DNA from: Pseudomonadota bacterium
GTDB lineage: Bacteria > Pseudomonadota > Gammaproteobacteria > Steroidobacterales > Steroidobacteraceae
Length of the DNA stretch: 33,118 bases
Reading direction: 5' to 3'
Assembly: GCA_021807675.1 (NCBI GenBank)
Contig: JAKBCR010000023.1
Coordinates: forward strand, 1 to 33,118
Shown: positions 4,730-19,797 of the stretch, piece by piece
Layout of the letters: every line of letters starts with the position of its first letter
How positions within the stretch are numbered: position 1 is the stretch's first letter
Translations under genes and position numbers: made by a program
Notes under the pieces: generated by a model
Databases searched by the model: none
Told to the model about the DNA's origin: nothing
What the model saw: only the letters and a program-made list of their open reading frames with translations

Positions 4730-5317
4730 GTGAAAAGACCGCCGAGCAATTCCATACTGCGTCCCGCCGTCAGCCTGCTGATCCTGATGACCGGCATCCT
4801 CGGCGTCGCATACCCGCTGGCCGTGACCGGTGTCGCCAGAGTCCTGTTCCCAGGGCAAGCAGCCGGGAGTCTCATCGTCAGGGATGGCAAGCCGGTGGGA
4901 TCGCGGCTCATCGGCCAGCCCTTCAGCGATGCCAGGTACTTCTGGAGCCGCCCGTCGGCCACCCGCCCGCAGCCCTACAACGGGCTCGCCTCCGGCGGCT
5001 CGAACTTAGGTCCCCTCAATCCCGCGCTCACCGCCGCGGTCGAGGCGCGCATCGCGGCGCTGAAGGCGGCCGATCCGACCAACCATGCCCCCATTCCGGT
5101 GGATCTGGTGACGGCGTCCGGCAGCGGCCTGGACCCCGACATCAGTCTCGCTGCGGCCTACTACCAGGTGGGCCGCATCGCCCGTACCAGGCACCTGACC
5201 CCGGGCCGGGTACGGGCCCTCATCGCCGCCCACGCCAGGACCCCGTGGCTTGGCGTCCTCGGGGAGCCCCGGGTCAATGTGCTGGAGCTGAACCTTGCGC
5301 TCGATAAGCTGAGATAA
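4730..5317 (+). CDS. kdpC: K(+)-transporting ATPase subunit C (KdpC)
   Basis: KdpC is a single-span subunit of the pump with a large periplasmic domain that assists the KdpA-KdpB complex. The 195-residue product begins with a transmembrane helix (about residues 9-32) followed by the family signatures GSRLIGQPF, YFWSRPSAT and SGSGLDPDIS. The length matches E. coli KdpC (190). The start is GTG at 4730, with GAGGA at 4719-4723 as ribosome-binding site, directly after the kdpB stop. The stop TAA at 5315-5317 is followed by a structured 88-base gap before kdpD instead of the tight spacing seen upstream. Confidence 0.97.
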   Translation: MKRPPSNSILRPAVSLLILMTGILGVAYPLAVTGVARVLFPGQAAGSLIVRDGKPVGSRLIGQPFSDARYFWSRPSATRPQPYNGLASGGSNLGPLNPALTAAVEARIAALKAADPTNHAPIPVDLVTASGSGLDPDISLAAAYYQVGRIARTRHLTPGRVRALIAAHARTPWLGVLGEPRVNVLELNLALDKLR

Positions 5318-5322
5318 TGGGG

Positions 5323-5410
5323 CGGTTTTCCCCGGCGCGCTCGTCGCGCCGCTACATGGATGGGGCTCGCCGAAGGCGCGTCCCATTGCGACCTGCGCCA
5401 AGCGCATGAC
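5323..5410 (+). promoter_or_regulatory. Three-hairpin leader element, copy A, ending on the kdpD start codon
   Basis: This gap holds three consecutive hairpins. H1 is a 7-bp stem at 5333-5339/5345-5351 with loop CTCGT. H2 is a 12-position stem at 5360-5371/5375-5386 with loop GAA, one T-C mismatch and one G-T pair. H3 is TGCGC-CAA-GCGCA at 5394-5406, whose last base is the A of the kdpD ATG. No purine-rich Shine-Dalgarno precedes that ATG. A second copy with the same order lies at 18345-18431 before spoVR, sharing the flanking strings CGCTACA and AGCGCATGAC. Pairs in H2 differ between copies but stay complementary. It could be a structured mRNA leader or a palindromic repeat that settled in front of the gene. 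Confidence 0.7.
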
Positions 5411-8120
5411 CAACAACCCGCCGGCCGAAGCCCGGCCCGATCCGGACCAGCTGCTCGCCCACGTCAAGGCCGAGGAGGCTCGCGCCACCCGTGGCCGGCT
5501 GCGCATATTCTTCGGCTCCTCCGCCGGCGTCGGCAAGACATACTCCATGTTGGAAGCGGCACGTGCCGCCAAGGCGTCCGGCACCGAAGTCGTCATCGGT
5601 TACCTCGAGCCGCACGGCCGGGTGGAGACGGAGCGGCTCGCAGAGGGATTTGAGCATCTGCCGCCCCTGCCGGTCGCCTACCGCGGCATCGTCCGGCAGG
5701 AGTTCAACCTGGACGCCGCCCTTTCCAGGCGCCCCGGTATTCTCCTGGTGGATGAGCTCGCTCACTCCAACCTCGCCGGCGGCGAGCCGGCGCCCCGGCA
5801 TCCCAAGCGCTGGCAGGACGTCGAGGAGTTGCTCGCGGCCGGCGTCAATGTCTGGACGACGGTCAACGTCCAGCACCTCGAGAGCCTGAACGACCTCGTC
5901 TACCAGACGACGGGTGTCAGGCAGCGCGAGACCCTGCCCGACAAAGTGTTCGATGAGGCCGACGACATCGAGCTGATCGACCTGCCCCCCGACGACCTCA
6001 TCGCGCGGCTGCACGCCGGCAAGGTCTACATCGCCGACGAGGTGGCGCGGGCGGTCGAGCGCTTCTTCCGCAAACCGAATCTCATGGCACTGCGCGAGAT
6101 CGCGTTGCGCCGCGTCGCGGACAGGGTCGAGGCGGCCGTGCGCGCGCTGGCGCCGGAGCGGACCCGAGCACGCATCGCCGGCGACCGGATCCTGGTCGCC
6201 GTCGGCCCGGACGCGCAGGCGGAGCAACTCGTGCGCGCCGGCAAGCGCATGGCTGACGCGCTCGATGCCCCATGGACCGTCGTTTATGTCGAGACGCTGC
6301 GGCTGCTGCGACTCTCCGACGAGGACCGCAATCGCCGGATCGCCGTCTTGCGGCTAGCGGAATCCCTGGGCGCGGAGACCGTGACGCTCGATGGGCCGTC
6401 GCCGGCCGCGGTGCTCCTGGAATACGCCCAGACCCGGGGCGCCACGCGCGTCATTCTCGGTGCCCCCAAGCGGCGGGGCTGGCGTGCATGGGTACGTCCC
6501 TCGACGGCAACCCAGCTTCTCCACCAGGCTCGCGGCTTCGACGTGGTGATCGTTGCGCCGGCGGAAGACCGCGTGCGGCAACGCGTGAGTTCGGCGCGCG
6601 TGGCGGAGGCGGCGGCCAGCTATCAGGGAGCGATCCGCTGGGATCGATACGGCCGCGCGGTGGGGCTTAGTGTGGCTTGCACGCTGCTCTCCCTCGTCAT
6701 GTATCCGCATTTCGAGCTCTCCAACCTCGCCATGGTCTATCTGCTCGGCGTCACCGTGGCCGGGCTGCGGCTGGGGCGGGGACCGTCGGCCTTGACGGCG
6801 GTGTTGAACGTCGCCTCCTTCGATTTCTTCTTCGTGCCGCCTCGATTCACGTTTGCCGTATCAGACGCGCAGTATCTCGTCACCTTCGGCGCGATGCTGA
6901 CCATCGCCCTGGTGATTGCAACCTTGACCGCAAACGTGCGGCAGCAGACCCGGGTTGCGGGTGCGCGCGAGCGCCGCACGGCCACGCTGTACGCGATGAG
7001 CCGCGAGCTGGCGGTGACCCGGGGGATCGAGAGCATCGCGGCGGTGGCGGTCCGTCATGTGGCGGAAGTGTTCCACTGCAAGGCCGTGGTTCTCCTGCCT
7101 GATTCCGGCGGCAAGCTGCGATACCCGCGCGGCGAAGCGCCGGAGAACGGGCTCCGGCGCGCGGATCTCGCCGTCGCCCAATGGGTGGTCGACCACGGGC
7201 AGCGCGCGGGACTCGGCACCGATACCCTGCCGGCGGCTCCCGCGCTCTACGTGCCGCTCGGCGACGAGCGCCGGACCGTGGGCGTGCTCGCCGTGCTGCC
7301 CACCAATCCGCGCCGCGTGTTGCTGCCGGAGCAGAGCCATCTGCTCGACACCTTCGCGGGCCAGATCGGGCTCGCGCTCGAGCGTGCGCGCCTCGCGGAG
7401 GTTGCTGAAGCGTCGAGTCTGGCGGTGGAGCGGGAGAGCCTGCGCAACACGCTGCTCGCGTCGATCTCACACGATCTGCGCACGCCGCTGGCCGTGATGG
7501 CAGGAGCCGCAAGCACCCTCGCGGAGCGCGGCACGGCGCTCACGGAGGAGAGCAAGGCCGAGCTCGCGCGGTCGATCGAGGTCAAGGCCCGCGAGATGTC
7601 GGATCTCGTTTCCAACGTGCTCGATCTCATGCGATTCCAGTCCGGGCAGATCCGGCTGCGCAGGGACTGGCAGCCGCTCGAGGATCTCGTGGGGACCGCG
7701 CTCGAGCGGCTGCAGGAGCGGCTGCGGGATCATCCGGTGGACGTTCGCCTGTCACCCGACCTCCCGCCCGTCCACGTGGATGCCGGGCTCGTGGTGCAGG
7801 TCTTCGGCAATCTGCTCGACAACATCGCCAAGTACACGCCGGCCGGCACTCGCTCCCGGATATCCGCCACCCACGACGACGACACCGTCCGGGTCGTGGT
7901 GGAGGACGAAGGGCCCGGTCTGCCGCCGGGCGATGCTTCGCGGCCGTTCGAGAAATTCCAACGCGGCAACGAGGAGGGTCCCGTGGTCGGGGCCGGTCTC
8001 GGGCTCGCCATCTGCCGCGCCGTCGTGCGGGCTCACGGCGGGGAGATCGCAGCGCGGCACCGCGAGGGCGGGGGAGCCCGGTTCGAGCTCACGCTGCCGG
8101 CGAAGGAGCCGCCCGCGTGA
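5406..8120 (+). CDS. kdpD: Osmosensitive K(+) channel histidine kinase KdpD
   Basis: KdpD senses potassium limitation and turgor and phosphorylates KdpE. The 904-residue product has the full family layout. The N-terminal KdpD domain has P-loop GSSAGVGKT at residues 37-45 and the LLVDELAHSN segment. A universal-stress-like domain spans about 255-375. Four close membrane helices lie at about 415-505, followed by a GAF-like segment. The dimerisation domain carries SISHDLRTPL with the phospho-acceptor histidine at 689. The ATPase domain has NLLDNIAKY at 802-810, then DEGPGLP and GAGLGLAI. E. coli KdpD has 894 residues and a similar N-terminus (a short RPDPD-containing lead before the P-loop domain), which supports the ATG at 5406. 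That ATG has no visible Shine-Dalgarno and sits at the end of a hairpin leader. The stop overlaps the kdpE start by 4 bases. Confidence 0.97.
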   Translation: MTNNPPAEARPDPDQLLAHVKAEEARATRGRLRIFFGSSAGVGKTYSMLEAARAAKASGTEVVIGYLEPHGRVETERLAEGFEHLPPLPVAYRGIVRQEFNLDAALSRRPGILLVDELAHSNLAGGEPAPRHPKRWQDVEELLAAGVNVWTTVNVQHLESLNDLVYQTTGVRQRETLPDKVFDEADDIELIDLPPDDLIARLHAGKVYIADEVARAVERFFRKPNLMALREIALRRVADRVEAAVRALAPERTRARIAGDRILVAVGPDAQAEQLVRAGKRMADALDAPWTVVYVETLRLLRLSDEDRNRRIAVLRLAESLGAETVTLDGPSPAAVLLEYAQTRGATRVILGAPKRRGWRAWVRPSTATQLLHQARGFDVVIVAPAEDRVRQRVSSARVAEAAASYQGAIRWDRYGRAVGLSVACTLLSLVMYPHFELSNLAMVYLLGVTVAGLRLGRGPSALTAVLNVASFDFFFVPPRFTFAVSDAQYLVTFGAMLTIALVIATLTANVRQQTRVAGARERRTATLYAMSRELAVTRGIESIAAVAVRHVAEVFHCKAVVLLPDSGGKLRYPRGEAPENGLRRADLAVAQWVVDHGQRAGLGTDTLPAAPALYVPLGDERRTVGVLAVLPTNPRRVLLPEQSHLLDTFAGQIGLALERARLAEVAEASSLAVERESLRNTLLASISHDLRTPLAVMAGAASTLAERGTALTEESKAELARSIEVKAREMSDLVSNVLDLMRFQSGQIRLRRDWQPLEDLVGTALERLQERLRDHPVDVRLSPDLPPVHVDAGLVVQVFGNLLDNIAKYTPAGTRSRISATHDDDTVRVVVEDEGPGLPPGDASRPFEKFQRGNEEGPVVGAGLGLAICRAVVRAHGGEIAARHREGGGARFELTLPAKEPPA

Positions 8121-15161: not shown

Positions 15162-17120
15162 ATGCGATCGCTTTCTACTGACCCGGAATCGACGAGCCAC
15201 TCGGCCTTCATCGAGTCGCTGAGCTCCTTCAGCCGACTGCACAGAGCCCAGCGCTGGGAGGGCACCTTCGGCGAATTTCTCGCCGACATCCTGCCCGCGA
15301 ACGCCGCGGCGATGGCTCGATCGAGCCACGAATACATCTGGGACATGCTCCGCTGGCATGGACGCACCGCGCAACCCGATGCGGCGGAAAGTCTTCGCGC
15401 ACGGGAGCTCTTCAAGCGGGAGCTGTTTGGCATCGACGAGCCGCTGTCGCGTGTCGTCGATTACTTCAAGGCCGCCGCCGCCGGGTCTGATGTTGGCCGC
15501 CGGCTGCTGCTGCTGCTGGGTCCTCCCTCCGGTGGCAAGTCGACGATGGCCATCCTCTTGAAGCGCGGCCTCGAGGAGTACAGCCGCACGGACGAGGGGG
15601 CGCTCTATGCCATCAAGGGCTCGCCCTTGCGCGAGAATCCCCTGAATCTGATTCCAGCGAGCCTGCGGTCGGAGTTTCGCGACCGCTATGGAGTCACCAT
15701 CCAGGGGGAGCTGTCACCCTGGGCGCGCGATGCCGTGGAGCGGGAATTCGACGGCGACTTCGTGCGCGTGCCGGTCGAGCGCGTCTTCCTGTCGGAGGCC
15801 TCGCGCACTGGCATCGGCACTTACGCGCCCCACGACCCCACCACCGCCGACATCGCGGACCTCGTCGGCTCGGTCGACCTCGCCAAGGTCGCCCAGATCG
15901 GCGACGAGGGCGACCCGCGCGCCTGGTCATGGTCCGGCGCCGTGTATGCCGCAAGCCGCGGCGTTCTGGAGATGATCGAGATCCTGAAGGTGAAGCGGGA
16001 GTTCCTCTACCTGCTCCTCACCTTGACTCAGGAGAAGAACGTCAAGGTGTCCCGTTTTCCCCTGATTCACGTCGACGAGACCATCCTCGCGCACACCAAC
16101 CTCGCGGAGTTCCACAAGTTCCTCCAGGAGAAGGAGAACGAGGCCCTGCTCGATCGCATGGTGATCATCAAGGTCCCCTATGCGCTCTCGTATCGCGACG
16201 AGGCCCGCATCTACCAGAAGCTCGTTTCCGGCGCGCCGGCCTTCCGCAACGTGCACCTCGATCCCCATGTGCTCAACCTGGCGGCCGTCTTCGCGATCCT
16301 GACGCGACTCACGAAGCCGGAGCGTGAGGGCCTCGACGTTGCCAAAAAACTACGCCTCTATGCCGGCGAGGCGGTCGAGGGTGCGCCGGAGACCGAAGCC
16401 TCGCGTCTGCACGCGGAGTCCCCCGACGAGGGTATGACCGGCGTCAGCCCGCGTTTCATCATCAATGCCATTTCCAACGCGATCACCCGCGGTACGACCA
16501 ACAGTCTGACCAGCATGGAGCTGCTGCTCGCGCTCAAGGACGGCATCGAGAGCGACGCCCGCATGGAGGCGAAGCAGAAGAAGGCCTGGATCGACCACCT
16601 GGTGACCGCGCGCAAGGAGTTCTACAACCGCTGGGTCAAGGAGGACGTCCACCGCGCCATGTTTGCCTCGTTCGAGGAGGAGGCACAGCAGCTCCTGGAG
16701 AAGTATCTCGATGAGGTGGAAGCCTCGCTCGATCACCGCCAGGTCACCGACCCCATCACCGGCGAGACGCGGCCGGCCGACGAGCGGTTCCTGCGCTCGG
16801 TGGAGGAGAAGATCAAGGTCTCCGATTCCGGCAAGCTGTCATTCCGGCAGGAGGTGGTCCGCAAGGCGATGGTCGCCTTCAAGGCCGGCGAGAAGTTCAA
16901 GCTCGCGAGCCACGCTCGTATGCGCGAGGCGATCGAGCAATACCTCTTCGATGAACGGCGCGACGTGTTGCGGCTCGTCACCTCGACGGCGCGTCCGGAC
17001 GAGGACGCGCGACAGAAGATCTCGGCCGTGCAGCAACGCCTGATCACCGAGTATGGCTACGACGAGCACAGCGCCAAGGAAGCCTTGAGCTACGTCACCA
17101 CCTTGCTCGCGCAGGAGTAG
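15162..17120 (+). CDS. prkA: PrkA family serine protein kinase (YeaG-like)
   Basis: The product is a 652-residue cytoplasmic protein of the PrkA/YeaG family (E. coli YeaG is 644 residues). It has an AAA-type N-terminal domain and a C-terminal PrkA domain. The P-loop GPPSGGKST is at residues 120-128, preceded by four leucines and followed by the conserved PLRENPLNLIP region. The family is linked to starvation, stationary-phase and nitrogen-stress responses, with reported Ser/Thr kinase and, in some members, protease activity. A strong ribosome-binding site (gggagggagg) precedes the ATG at 15162. The genes yeaH and spoVR follow on the same strand, the conserved three-gene arrangement of this family. 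Confidence 0.95.
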   Translation: MRSLSTDPESTSHSAFIESLSSFSRLHRAQRWEGTFGEFLADILPANAAAMARSSHEYIWDMLRWHGRTAQPDAAESLRARELFKRELFGIDEPLSRVVDYFKAAAAGSDVGRRLLLLLGPPSGGKSTMAILLKRGLEEYSRTDEGALYAIKGSPLRENPLNLIPASLRSEFRDRYGVTIQGELSPWARDAVEREFDGDFVRVPVERVFLSEASRTGIGTYAPHDPTTADIADLVGSVDLAKVAQIGDEGDPRAWSWSGAVYAASRGVLEMIEILKVKREFLYLLLTLTQEKNVKVSRFPLIHVDETILAHTNLAEFHKFLQEKENEALLDRMVIIKVPYALSYRDEARIYQKLVSGAPAFRNVHLDPHVLNLAAVFAILTRLTKPEREGLDVAKKLRLYAGEAVEGAPETEASRLHAESPDEGMTGVSPRFIINAISNAITRGTTNSLTSMELLLALKDGIESDARMEAKQKKAWIDHLVTARKEFYNRWVKEDVHRAMFASFEEEAQQLLEKYLDEVEASLDHRQVTDPITGETRPADERFLRSVEEKIKVSDSGKLSFRQEVVRKAMVAFKAGEKFKLASHARMREAIEQYLFDERRDVLRLVTSTARPDEDARQKISAVQQRLITEYGYDEHSAKEALSYVTTLLAQE

Positions 17121-17153
17121 CGCTCGGCCTGAAAAAGGAGTAGACCAGCAACA

Positions 17154-18332
17154 ATGGCTGCGAACAGCGAGAGCGGCGGCGGACAGTCGGGCGGGGACGC
17201 CGCCAAGTGGTACGAGCTCTTCTCGCGCGGCGCCCGCGACTGGCTGCGCCACGACGAGAAGGTTCGCGAGTCGGTGCGTCAGCACTTGCCGCAGATCGTC
17301 GCGGGTGGGGAGCTGATCAACGGCGGCTCGCGCACCGTGAGAGTGCCGGTGCGCATGCTGGAGCACTATCACTTTCGGCTGCGCCGGCCGGAGGAGCAGC
17401 AGGGTGCCGGCCAGGGGAAGGCCAAGCCGGGCGATGTATTCGCCGATCCTTCCCGTCAGCGCGGCTCCGGAGAGAAGGGACCGGGAGGACAGGAGGAGGG
17501 CGAGGTGCAGCTGCTGCTCGAGTTCAAGGTCGATGACATCGTCGACTGGCTCTGGGAAGAGATGCAACTGCCCAATCTCAAGGCCCGCGTCGGCGCCTCG
17601 GAGGATTCCGACTGGGTGCGCGAGGGGTGGGATCGCCGCGGCGCTCGCTCCCGGCTCGACCGGCGCCGCTCCTTCAAGGAGCTGGTGAAGCGCCGTGGCG
17701 CGCCAGGCGCGACACCTACGTTCACGGACGAGGATCTGCGCTACCGCCAGCTCGCGCGACGGCGTCAACCGGCGATCCATGCCGTGGTCTTCTTTCTCCT
17801 CGATGTATCCGGCAGCATGTCGGATCGCGACCGGAAGCTCGCCAAGACCTTCTTCTTCTGGGTGGTGCAGGGCCTGCGTCGGGAGTACCGCTCGCTCGAG
17901 ACGGTGTTTGTCGCGCATACCACCGAAGCGTGGGAGTTCACCGAGGCCGAGTTCTTCCAGGTGAGCGGCACCGGGGGCACCGTTGCCTCGACCGGCTTCG
18001 CCAAGGTGCAGGAGATCATCGAGGAGCGCTACAACCCGGGCCGCTGCAACATCTATCTGTTCTATGCTTCCGACGGGGACAACTCCGTCAGCGACTCCGC
18101 GGATGCTCGCGAAGGGCTGTCCGCCATTGCCGAGGACGCCTGCTTCACCGGCTACGTCGAGGTCTCTTCCGGCCTCTCACGGCAGCTCGCCACCGAGACC
18201 GGGCGCCTGTTCGCGGAGCTGGCCGCCGCGGGTTGCGCCGCGGGCAGTTACGCTCTCAACGACTTTGACGATGTCTGGGGTGCGGTGCGGCACTTCTTCT
18301 CCGCGGAAAGCCGGGCCGAGGAAGGTGCATGA
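17154..18332 (+). CDS. yeaH: YeaH/DUF444 family VWA-domain protein
   Basis: This 392-residue protein of the DUF444 family is the constant partner of PrkA. After a charged N-terminal half comes a von Willebrand A-type domain with an intact metal-ion site, FLLDVSGSMSD, with the aspartate at residue 217. A second conserved block is HTTEAWEFTEAEFF, followed by GTGGTVASTGF. It is probably a soluble cytoplasmic metal-dependent adaptor that works with PrkA. The precise function is not established. The ATG at 17154 has AAAAAGGAG upstream, 33 bases after prkA. The residues around 82-115 are a low-complexity Gly/Lys/Gln linker. The stop at 18332 is followed by a structured leader before spoVR. Confidence 0.93.
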   Translation: MAANSESGGGQSGGDAAKWYELFSRGARDWLRHDEKVRESVRQHLPQIVAGGELINGGSRTVRVPVRMLEHYHFRLRRPEEQQGAGQGKAKPGDVFADPSRQRGSGEKGPGGQEEGEVQLLLEFKVDDIVDWLWEEMQLPNLKARVGASEDSDWVREGWDRRGARSRLDRRRSFKELVKRRGAPGATPTFTDEDLRYRQLARRRQPAIHAVVFFLLDVSGSMSDRDRKLAKTFFFWVVQGLRREYRSLETVFVAHTTEAWEFTEAEFFQVSGTGGTVASTGFAKVQEIIEERYNPGRCNIYLFYASDGDNSVSDSADAREGLSAIAEDACFTGYVEVSSGLSRQLATETGRLFAELAAAGCAAGSYALNDFDDVWGAVRHFFSAESRAEEGA

Positions 18333-18344
18333 GTGGTGAAATAT

Positions 18345-18431
18345 CGTTTTTCCCGGCGCGCATCGCGCGCCGCTACAGGGACGGGGTTTGCGTCTTAGCG
18401 AACCCCGTAAAGCCTGCGCGCAGCGCATGAC
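18345..18431 (+). promoter_or_regulatory. Three-hairpin leader element, copy B, ending on the spoVR start codon
   Basis: This is the same architecture as the element at 5323-5410. H1 is an 8-bp stem CGGCGCGC/GCGCGCCG at 18354-18361/18365-18372 with loop ATC. H2 is an 11-bp stem at 18381-18391/18398-18408 with loop GTCTTA. H3 is TGCGC-GCA-GCGCA at 18415-18427, and its last base is the A of the spoVR ATG. In H2 the second pair is C-G here and T-A in copy A, and the seventh pair is T-A here and C-G in copy A, so both changes preserve pairing. There is again no Shine-Dalgarno before the ATG. The element separates spoVR from yeaH within what should be one operon. Confidence 0.7.
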
Positions 18432-19797
18432 AAGCACAGACGACACCTGGCAGAGCTATACCCAACGTATCGAGGAGCTGGCGGGCCGGCTGGGCCTGAA
18501 GTTCCACCCCGTCGACTTCGAGGCGGTGCCCGATACCTTCATGATGGAGATCGCGGTGTATGGCCTGCCGGTGCGCATGCCGCACTGGTCATTCGGCGTC
18601 CGCTACATCTATCAGCTCATCCAGCGGCACATGGGCCACTCGCGGCTGTTCGAGGTGGTGTTTCCCGGAAATCCCGGACACGCGTACCTCGCCTCGAGCA
18701 ACGGGCTGGCGGAGAACGTTCTCGTCACCGCCCACGTCCTGGGCCATGCCGATTTCTCGCGCAACAATCTGCTCTTCCAGCGCTGCCAGGAGCAGGTCAG
18801 CGAGCACATTGTGGAGCATGCGGCCAACCACGCGCGGCAGATCCAGCAGGCGATCGAGACGCACGGTGTGCAGCGCGTCGAAGCGGTGCTCGACGCTGCG
18901 TTGGCCCTGGAGCAGCACATCGACGTCGATCAGTCGCTGCGACGCGCCCGATATCCCGAGTACCTGGAGGACAAGAGGACGCCGGAGGAAGACGACTTCC
19001 GCAAACGTTTTGCGCAACTTGAGCCGGCGGCCGCCAGCTCCGGTATCGAGCCGAAAAAGCGCGCTCCCGTGCCGCCGCATCCGGAGCGGGACCTGCTCTG
19101 GTTCGTGGCCCAATATGCGCCGGAGATGGAGAGTTGGGAGCGTGACATCTTCCTCGCGGTCCGCGAGGAATCGTTCTATTTCTATCCGGTCTTCGCCACG
19201 CAGATCATGAACGAGGGGTGGGCCTCGTACTGGCACGCGCGACTGCTGCGCGAGGCGGACTTCGTCCCGCAACAGGCGTACGTCGATGCCATCAAATGCC
19301 ACTCCGACGTCGTCCGGCCCATTGCCGCCGACCAACAGGTGGCGCTCAGCATCAATCCCTACCATCTCGGCTTCGCGATGTGGGAGAAGATCGTCGAGAG
19401 CGAGGGACTCGAGGCGGCCCGCGACATCATGATCCAGGACGACGACTTCGCCTTCGTGCGCAACCACCTCACGCGCGAGCTCGCCGAAGAGCTGAGTCTC
19501 TTCCGCTACAGCGCGCGCAGCGATGGACAGATCAAGGTGCTGGAGCAGGACCTCACTGCGTTGCACGAGGCGATTCTCAGCCCCAAGTACAATTTTGGCG
19601 CGCCCAGCGTGTTGGCGAAGCGCGTCCGCAATGACGGCACCCTGGAGCTGGTACATGACTATGCGCTCGACGGTCGCGGCCTCGACCTCGAGCGCAGCCG
19701 CAAGGTGCTCGACTATCTGCAGCGCGTCTGGCGGCGGCCGGTGCAGCTCACCACCACCAATCAGGCGGGTCTTGCGCTCGAGCTGACGGCTCCGTAA
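18427..19797 (+). CDS. spoVR: SpoVR family protein (YcgB-like)
   Basis: This 456-residue cytoplasmic protein of the SpoVR/YcgB family is the third member of the PrkA-YeaH-SpoVR module. Family landmarks include MPHWSFGVRY near residue 53, a VTAHVLGHADFSRNNLLF segment near 100-117, RDLLWFVAQYAPEMESWERDI, and the NEGWASYWH motif with conserved His and Glu. The family name comes from a Bacillus spore-cortex mutant; the biochemical role is unknown. I chose the ATG at 18427 because homology to YcgB begins shortly after it and earlier in-frame codons fall inside the hairpin leader. The length is a little shorter than E. coli YcgB (510). Confidence 0.93.
   Translation: MTSTDDTWQSYTQRIEELAGRLGLKFHPVDFEAVPDTFMMEIAVYGLPVRMPHWSFGVRYIYQLIQRHMGHSRLFEVVFPGNPGHAYLASSNGLAENVLVTAHVLGHADFSRNNLLFQRCQEQVSEHIVEHAANHARQIQQAIETHGVQRVEAVLDAALALEQHIDVDQSLRRARYPEYLEDKRTPEEDDFRKRFAQLEPAAASSGIEPKKRAPVPPHPERDLLWFVAQYAPEMESWERDIFLAVREESFYFYPVFATQIMNEGWASYWHARLLREADFVPQQAYVDAIKCHSDVVRPIAADQQVALSINPYHLGFAMWEKIVESEGLEAARDIMIQDDDFAFVRNHLTRELAEELSLFRYSARSDGQIKVLEQDLTALHEAILSPKYNFGAPSVLAKRVRNDGTLELVHDYALDGRGLDLERSRKVLDYLQRVWRRPVQLTTTNQAGLALELTAP

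Follow-up and report, generated by a model that had tools for sequence, protein, structure and literature searches.

The closest described systems are the GTAG-tagged REPs, short palindromes with unpaired tags that, according to the excerpted text, are found for the most part where neighbouring genes share a direction or converge, near these genes or overlapping with them (PMC3733652), and whose ends often provide the TAG stop of a neighbour (Di Nocera et al. 2013, PMC3733652, same excerpt). REP/RAYT systems are described in the available part of another account as exceeding 100 copies per genome (PMC2817692), and Rickettsia palindromic elements join coding regions, adding residues inside proteins (PMC3733652, in excerpt). 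Regarding translation, integron attC sites with a short ORF and the attI1 ORF-11 represent cases where a short frame through the attC hairpin relays reinitiation (PMC8876359, in excerpt), and in termination-reinitiation ATGA overlaps couple translation, the importance of a Shine-Dalgarno being variable (PMC6728339, in excerpt). The term 'start codon' is absent from the main text of PMC3733652, and in the portions of the literature retrieved by our search we found neither a repeat family described as a source of start codons with a bridging frame nor a dispersed repeat with a ready stop-start end.

In the window, by which we mean the whole analysed stretch of 33,118 nucleotides, the gaps before kdpD and before spoVR each hold a copy of a three-hairpin element, with family consensus ends 5' TTCTTnCCGGCGC and 3' GCGCATGAnAAG. 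The element was delimited with two covariance models, R1 (4 copies, those before kdpD and spoVR among them) and R2 (60 copies). The features are:

4730..5317, + strand, kdpC (Pfam PF02669)
5317..5409, + strand, bridge reading frame before kdpD, peptide MGRFSPARSSRRYMDGARRRRVPLRPAPSA followed by the stop; its ATG overlaps the kdpC stop (TAATG) and its TGA overlaps the kdpD start (ATGA)
5326..5411, + strand, repeat element before kdpD, 86 bp (cmsearch with R1/R2, alignment, end consensus)
5333..5351, + strand, hairpin 1 of the kdpD copy (5333-5339 with 5345-5351), then CTAC at 5352-5355 (alignment, fold)
5360..5386, + strand, hairpin 2 of the kdpD copy (5360-5370 with 5376-5386; alignment, fold)
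5394..5406, + strand, hairpin 3 of the kdpD copy (5394-5398 with 5402-5406), the final base being the A of the kdpD ATG (sequence, fold, alignment)
5406..8120, + strand, kdpD (Pfam), KdpD sensor domain from residue 29
17154..18332, + strand, DUF444 gene upstream of spoVR (Pfam PF04285)
18329..18430, + strand, bridge reading frame before spoVR, peptide MSGEISFFPARIARRYRDGVCVLANPVKPARSA followed by the stop; its ATG overlaps the DUF444 gene stop (ATGA) and its TGA overlaps the spoVR start (ATGA)
18347..18432, + strand, repeat element before spoVR (cmsearch with R1/R2)
18354..18372, + strand, hairpin 1 of the spoVR copy (18354-18360 with 18366-18372), then CTAC at 18373-18376 (alignment, fold)
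18381..18408, + strand, hairpin 2 of the spoVR copy (18381-18391 with 18398-18408; alignment, fold)
18415..18427, + strand, hairpin 3 of the spoVR copy (18415-18419 with 18423-18427), the final base being the A of the spoVR ATG (sequence, fold, alignment)
18427..19797, + strand, spoVR (Pfam), with an in-frame TTG at 18388 within the element as alternative start

A preceding sequence-only reading had proposed that the two gaps share one element, and indeed the hairpin order, the string CGCTACA and the end AGCGCATGAC are present at 5323-5411 and 18345-18432. The alignment likewise bears out that two pairs of hairpin 2 differ between the copies yet stay complementary, and that hairpin 3 is TGCGC-NNN-GCGCA in both, its last stem base being the A of the ATG. 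Inspection of the upstream sequences by eye agrees with the claim that neither start is preceded by a Shine-Dalgarno while neighbours have one (kdpC, kdpE and prkA; for the DUF444 gene AAGGAG at long spacing), and Pfam supports the KdpD and SpoVR identities. The kdpD ORF holds no possible start upstream of 5406. Within 15162-19797, prkA, the DUF444 gene and spoVR follow each other on the same strand, with the element before spoVR only. As folds, the kdpD element is unremarkable (z -0.35; 69 of 200 shuffles equally good) and the spoVR element moderate (z -2.71; 2 of 200). Against the window's own genome, blastn with the kdpD element returned the spoVR copy at 2.7e-6 and a third copy at 1.9e-8, plus weaker copies, and R1 recovered copies absent from its building set at 1.2e-8 to 8.3e-7; the likeness of the two window copies is thus beyond chance.

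The kdpD/spoVR element is almost certainly a dispersed palindromic repeat family of Steroidobacteraceae rather than a dedicated leader. It spans about 86 to roughly 90 bases and three hairpins, the end consensus being TTCTTnCC ahead of hairpin 1 and hairpin 3 followed by ATGAnAAG. The window's own genome has 12 R1 matches at E < 0.02 and 16 R2 matches at E up to about 0.01. Among 25 same-genus genomes R1 matched 23 at E up to 1 and 20 at E up to 0.01, G001 and G016 being the two without a match at E up to 1. With R2 at E up to 0.01, G005, G010, G002 and G003 gave 47, 20, 26 and 31 matches, counts that include a few copies matched on both strands. All copy numbers are lower bounds, because limited candidates were scored per genome (112-150, reduced to 45 or 16 for the scans of family and class). 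Across Steroidobacteraceae the spread is patchy, with 15 of 100 genomes and 7 of 25 genera including the window's own (E up to 0.001), and sparse occurrence in sister genera. A class-wide scan with stricter filters found the element in 1 of 274 genomes, the window's own, and in named genomes a pattern scan picked out 15 stretches, every one of them in a draft labelled Proteobacteria, Gammaproteobacteria or (2 of the 15) Steroidobacteraceae. The kdpD element had no match among plasmids. Lone hairpin-3 units away from elements numbered 13 in 0.9 Mb (8 in called genes) against 7 in shuffled sequence, with 9 more close to elements, and there is no sign of a large separate family of such units.

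Individual copies depart from the common form. L104:2496-2744 (G003) holds three tandem copies, two nearly identical in unit, a sign of recent local duplication. In G002 many copies (L229, L231-L241 and others) match over about 70 bp only, as if without hairpin 1, and these short copies end CTGG or CTAG, not ATGA, several such ends overlapping reverse stop codons.

The gene context was assessed for 200 placed copies, a chosen subset of the matches listed, grouped into 141 sites and called with a home-made codon-usage caller, after removal of 3 antisense duplicates and then 2 further rows and 3 repeated contigs. Between same-direction genes lay 109 copies in sense (68 sites) and 29 in antisense orientation (23 sites); the remainder were convergent (30), divergent (19), inside called genes (11) or at contig ends (2). 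The sense bias (68 vs 23 sites, p 2.5e-6) persists when start-supplying sites are subtracted (53 vs 23, p 0.0008). Copies facing a reverse gene overlap its stop codon with the element 3' end in 23 of 59 cases, and the 3' end tends to favour gene edges, of either kind. Downstream genes of other copies include, by NCBIfam, rpsK, rplX, rplF, rpsJ, atpA, atpC, atpD, dnaJ, murI, nuoC and carB; the association with regulatory or stress genes suggested by the window pair does not look general.

Two placements deserve separate mention. In L122:2562-2648 and L330:2010-2103 the called gene traverses the element into the downstream protein, an apparent N-terminal fusion, where one fused downstream part has a lipoprotein-like start and the other is presumably gatB. 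Moreover, in five genomes (L065, L067, L130, L136, L242) a reverse-oriented copy adjoins a sequence that we take to be the rnpB (RNase P RNA) 3' end and might serve this gene as terminator.

The terminal ATG coincides with a gene start in 26 copies at 15 of the 68 sense sites, three of these copies (L096, L154, L316) having been hand-corrected where the caller had chosen another start. These 26 of 109 sense copies contrast with 35 spread over the 12 positions 5-16 bases further, about 3 per position; the lack of a start-codon bias that would have spoken against the sequence-only reading is thus not seen. We hold it very likely that the element ATG serves as start codon of the downstream genes. 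The genes concerned are kdpD and spoVR (Pfam) along with dnaJ, nuoC, rbfA, rfbA, murI, rplX, sppA, carB, rplO, atpD, rsmH, rplF and coaE, the latter 13 identified with NCBIfam from one member each. Family profiles start at or adjoining the residue of the element ATG for dnaJ, rplX, rbfA, rfbA, murI, rplF and coaE. For rplO, a second ATG follows three codons after the first and the profile starts beyond it, which makes the element ATG a doubtful start for this gene. All 26 start copies read ATGA, as opposed to 68 of 79 other ATG copies (p 0.036). A Shine-Dalgarno is absent in 21 of the 26; the other 5 are shortened dnaJ copies from one site only, with GAGG in the hairpin-3 loop. Where the gene instead starts 5-22 bases further, sense copies have a Shine-Dalgarno in 24 of 44 cases, beginning in the element tail in 13.

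Comparison of occupied and empty loci sheds further light on these starts. A full-length rplF match was available from 26 of 41 genus genomes, and 25 of the 26 loci start ATGTC; the exception, G002, has ATGAGT, the start lying within a doubled hairpin 3. In another genus two element-bearing rplF loci start ATGAGT and ATGAGC, and in G421 the element is just upstream with the old ATGTCG retained. For the rplF copy in L326 (8168) the caller placed the start 9 bases downstream, and the copy stayed in the non-start group although its ATG is probably the start; its site is counted as start-supplying via L154. The spoVR junction was compared at 16 loci, 2 with the element, 10 without and 4 that gave no motif, and the 10 element-free loci show a stop/start overlap of ATGA (5) or GTGA (4), or none (1, with a short gap). 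Upstream of its spoVR element the window retains ATGA and a few codons, ATGAGTGGTGAAATATCG, and the first six codons of the spoVR bridge look like an old spoVR start. Together with the blastn hits, the R1 matches and the 15 start sites, the rplF comparison supports the proposal that unrelated genes have received their start regions from a palindromic repeat family.

The sequence-only reading, whose proposal of repeat-supplied starts is upheld, overlooked the reading frame that crosses the element. We scored a bridge frame as one that starts -4 to +8 from the upstream stop and stays open to the terminal TGA. Among start-supplying sites 11 of 15 carry such a frame, and among the other sense sites 10 of 49 (Fisher 0.0003), or 12 of 53 when five mixed sites are placed in both groups (Fisher 0.0005); without the doubtful rplO it is present at 10 of 14 start-supplying sites. 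Sites without a bridge start in this window are nuoC, sppA, atpD and rsmH. The start windows were of our choosing and three were tried, p ranging from 0.003 (narrower) to 0.00005 (wider) by exclusive sites and from 0.03 to 0.002 by copies. A filter on the distance to the upstream stop removed 1 of the 26 start copies and 11 of the 83 remaining sense copies from the frame test. An equivalent frame in either other reading frame was found at 0 of 15 start-supplying sites each, the zero for the ATG frame being partly built in because the caller would extend the gene over any frame entering it. The +1 frame offers the fair comparison, with 0 of 15 start-supplying sites vs 8 of 49 elsewhere, this frame being generally less open.

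The TGA frame was open through the element in 11 of 11 start-supplying copies vs 80 of 120 others in a first data set. Within the 200-copy set it was open in 136 of 198 copies with called context and, before hand correction, in 19 of 23 start copies, all four failures being shortened dnaJ copies. Of the five shortened dnaJ copies, four lost the full open frame and four kept a 16-codon GTG frame to the same TGA; the GAGG of their hairpin-3 loop looks as if a Shine-Dalgarno had joined or replaced translation across the repeat. Where hairpin 3 is doubled, the frame reaches the second ATGA for spoVR in G010 and for rplF in G002; the doubled hairpin 3 of L134 (kdpD, G005) has just a 9-codon frame from the first ATG, and that of L120 no such frame.

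Aggregated, these data lead us to propose a repeat of about 90 bp, REP- or MITE-like and probably non-autonomous, residing mostly at gene boundaries and with a 3' end CATGA. Such a repeat would land next to the first codons of a downstream operon gene or slightly within them, where the repeat's own ATG could become the new start. The old start, left at the upstream gene's stop, would then open a 24-42 codon frame through the repeat, with a terminal TGA that shares bases with the new ATG. Ribosomes leaving the upstream gene may restart on this bridge, unwind the hairpins and restart again at the ATGA. Coupled translation of the operon would be kept although the new start is mostly without Shine-Dalgarno and within a hairpin; operons would tolerate the repeat through its translation as a relay of about 30 codons reinitiating at ATGA. 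The data show the repeat family, the ATG that it supplies and the frame statistics; insertion as the route, translation of the bridge and reinitiation feeding the gene are what we infer. A REP-like repeat with a translated relay reinitiating at ATGA is in our judgement the best explanation, and probably the right one. More tentatively, and with somewhat less than even confidence, we suggest that a mobile repeat with a CATGA end makes insertion into first codons survivable, even in essential operon genes, the old start, the repeat and the ATGA together forming a translated relay, approximately a self-bypassing insertion that keeps operon coupling.

We also searched for traces of the proposed mobility. 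A RAYT origin was rejected, since PF01797 (Y1_Tnp, RAYT) is absent from G002, G005 and G010, three of the four copy-rich genomes, all searched as drafts. Strong PF01797 matches occur in G003, G004, G023 and G024, in frames of 135-160 aa that we take to be ordinary IS200, and weak partial ones in G008, G011 and G012; at G000:C373:9575-9936 the window's own genome contains a PF01797 (IS200-type) transposase frame that is broken. No target-site duplication stands out at fixed offsets in 92 copies, and local flank matching found none in 23 start copies; 84 other sense copies show a slight excess of flank similarity (5.38 vs 4.95, sd 0.12). By eye, a few bases are repeated around the old and new start in the murI, rbfA and rplF copies, a pattern that is not general, and the ends TTCTT... 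and ...GAAG match as terminal inverted repeats only in a short CTTCT-type form.

Alternatively, the element may be a plain REP-type repeat, selfish or neutral DNA at gene edges, of which the brought ATG is used by ordinary weak initiation and the frame is open by chance. Congruent with this are copies in all orientations and gene-end contexts, the 3' end over the stop codon of a reverse gene in 23 of 59 facing copies, the symmetrical G-U and A-C counts given below and a TGA frame that some two thirds of copies keep open. It is however at odds with a bridge frame at 11 of 15 start-supplying vs 10 of 49 sites and none in the other frames, with new starts that mostly are without Shine-Dalgarno (21 of 26) and inside a hairpin, and with the GAGG that the five shortened dnaJ copies, from a single site, carry in their hairpin-3 loop. 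We consider this explanation unlikely, if still a serious one.

The covariation bears on another explanation, a structured RNA leader of which the fold itself regulates initiation of the downstream gene, as had been put forward from the window pair. Pairing holds in 95.7% of cells of the 60-copy alignment, with double changes at 20 of 23 pairs, both figures being inflated by the fitting of this alignment to the structure; the double changes, the start codon paired within hairpin 3 and the sense bias, with or without the start-supplying sites, would suit a leader. Under RNA selection on the sense strand one would expect G-U intermediates to be favoured, which DNA palindromes should not show. 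Over the 200 copies G-U and A-C intermediates number 88 and 82 (p 0.70), in alignments that, if anything, favour G-U; the counts are 38 vs 39 in sense copies not used as start, and 13 vs 9 in start copies. Thus the compensatory changes expected in a larger alignment are abundant but lack an RNA-strand signature, and since G-U and A-C are equal, the covariation fits DNA palindromes and is no proof of a selected RNA fold. Furthermore, antisense, convergent and divergent copies exist (29, 30 and 19 of 200), part of the family lacks hairpin 1, e.g. the short G002 copies, and Rfam has no match in the window at gathering score. On the G-U/A-C and orientation counts we reject a structured leader as main explanation, and the idea as a whole is improbable. 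A transcription-level role inside operons, as terminator, RNA processing or stabilising site, functions that have been proposed for REPs, is highly improbable, for while copies between convergent genes and the reverse copies beside the presumed rnpB 3' end in five genomes would agree with it, the element consensus has no T run after hairpin 3, and the ATGA and frame are left unexplained.

If the translated relay holds true, a selfish repeat would give housekeeping genes their start codons and carry its own means of harmlessness in operons, showing a route for palindromic repeats through densely coupled operons. The sites would also represent natural replicates for testing termination-reinitiation without a Shine-Dalgarno, and would caution that annotation at such junctions can easily err, over start codons as well as over short upstream frames.

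How, then, does the element compare with the described systems? It resembles the GTAG-tagged REPs as a short palindromic extragenic repeat with many copies and placement at gene edges, as far as the excerpt of that work describes them (PMC3733652), and its copy numbers of 47, 20, 26 and 31 matches, themselves lower bounds, are below the more than 100 per genome stated for REPs in the available part of PMC2817692. On the minus strand the consensus hairpin 1 reads GTAG then the stem, the corresponding CTAC next to hairpin 1 being the column-majority sequence, exact in 30 of 141 copies having hairpin 1. It differs from these REPs in having three hairpins per unit, in numbering tens of detected copies per genome, in the absence of PF01797 from three of the four copy-rich genomes, and in a 3' end that supplies start codons with ATGA. 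Integron attC sites carry the core motif RYYYAAC / GTTRRRY, and this core pair is found in only 1 of 200 element copies. Like attC, the element lies between genes as a site of mobile DNA that forms hairpins, and the short frame traversing it would here relay ribosomes by termination and reinitiation (PMC8876359, in excerpt); in contrast to attC it is a dispersed chromosomal repeat rather than a cassette array, and its stop and new start share the ATGA at the repeat end. Like the Rickettsia palindromic elements, as excerpted in PMC3733652, it is a palindromic repeat entering coding regions, although it mostly provides a separate bridge frame and a new start, L122 and L330 being the two apparent fusions. 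As in the ATGA overlaps covered by the excerpt of PMC6728339, stop and start lie within one ATGA, which here is repeat-borne instead of placed between two long-standing neighbour genes. The repeat type itself is familiar, and the unusual part is the use of the repeat end as a start codon.
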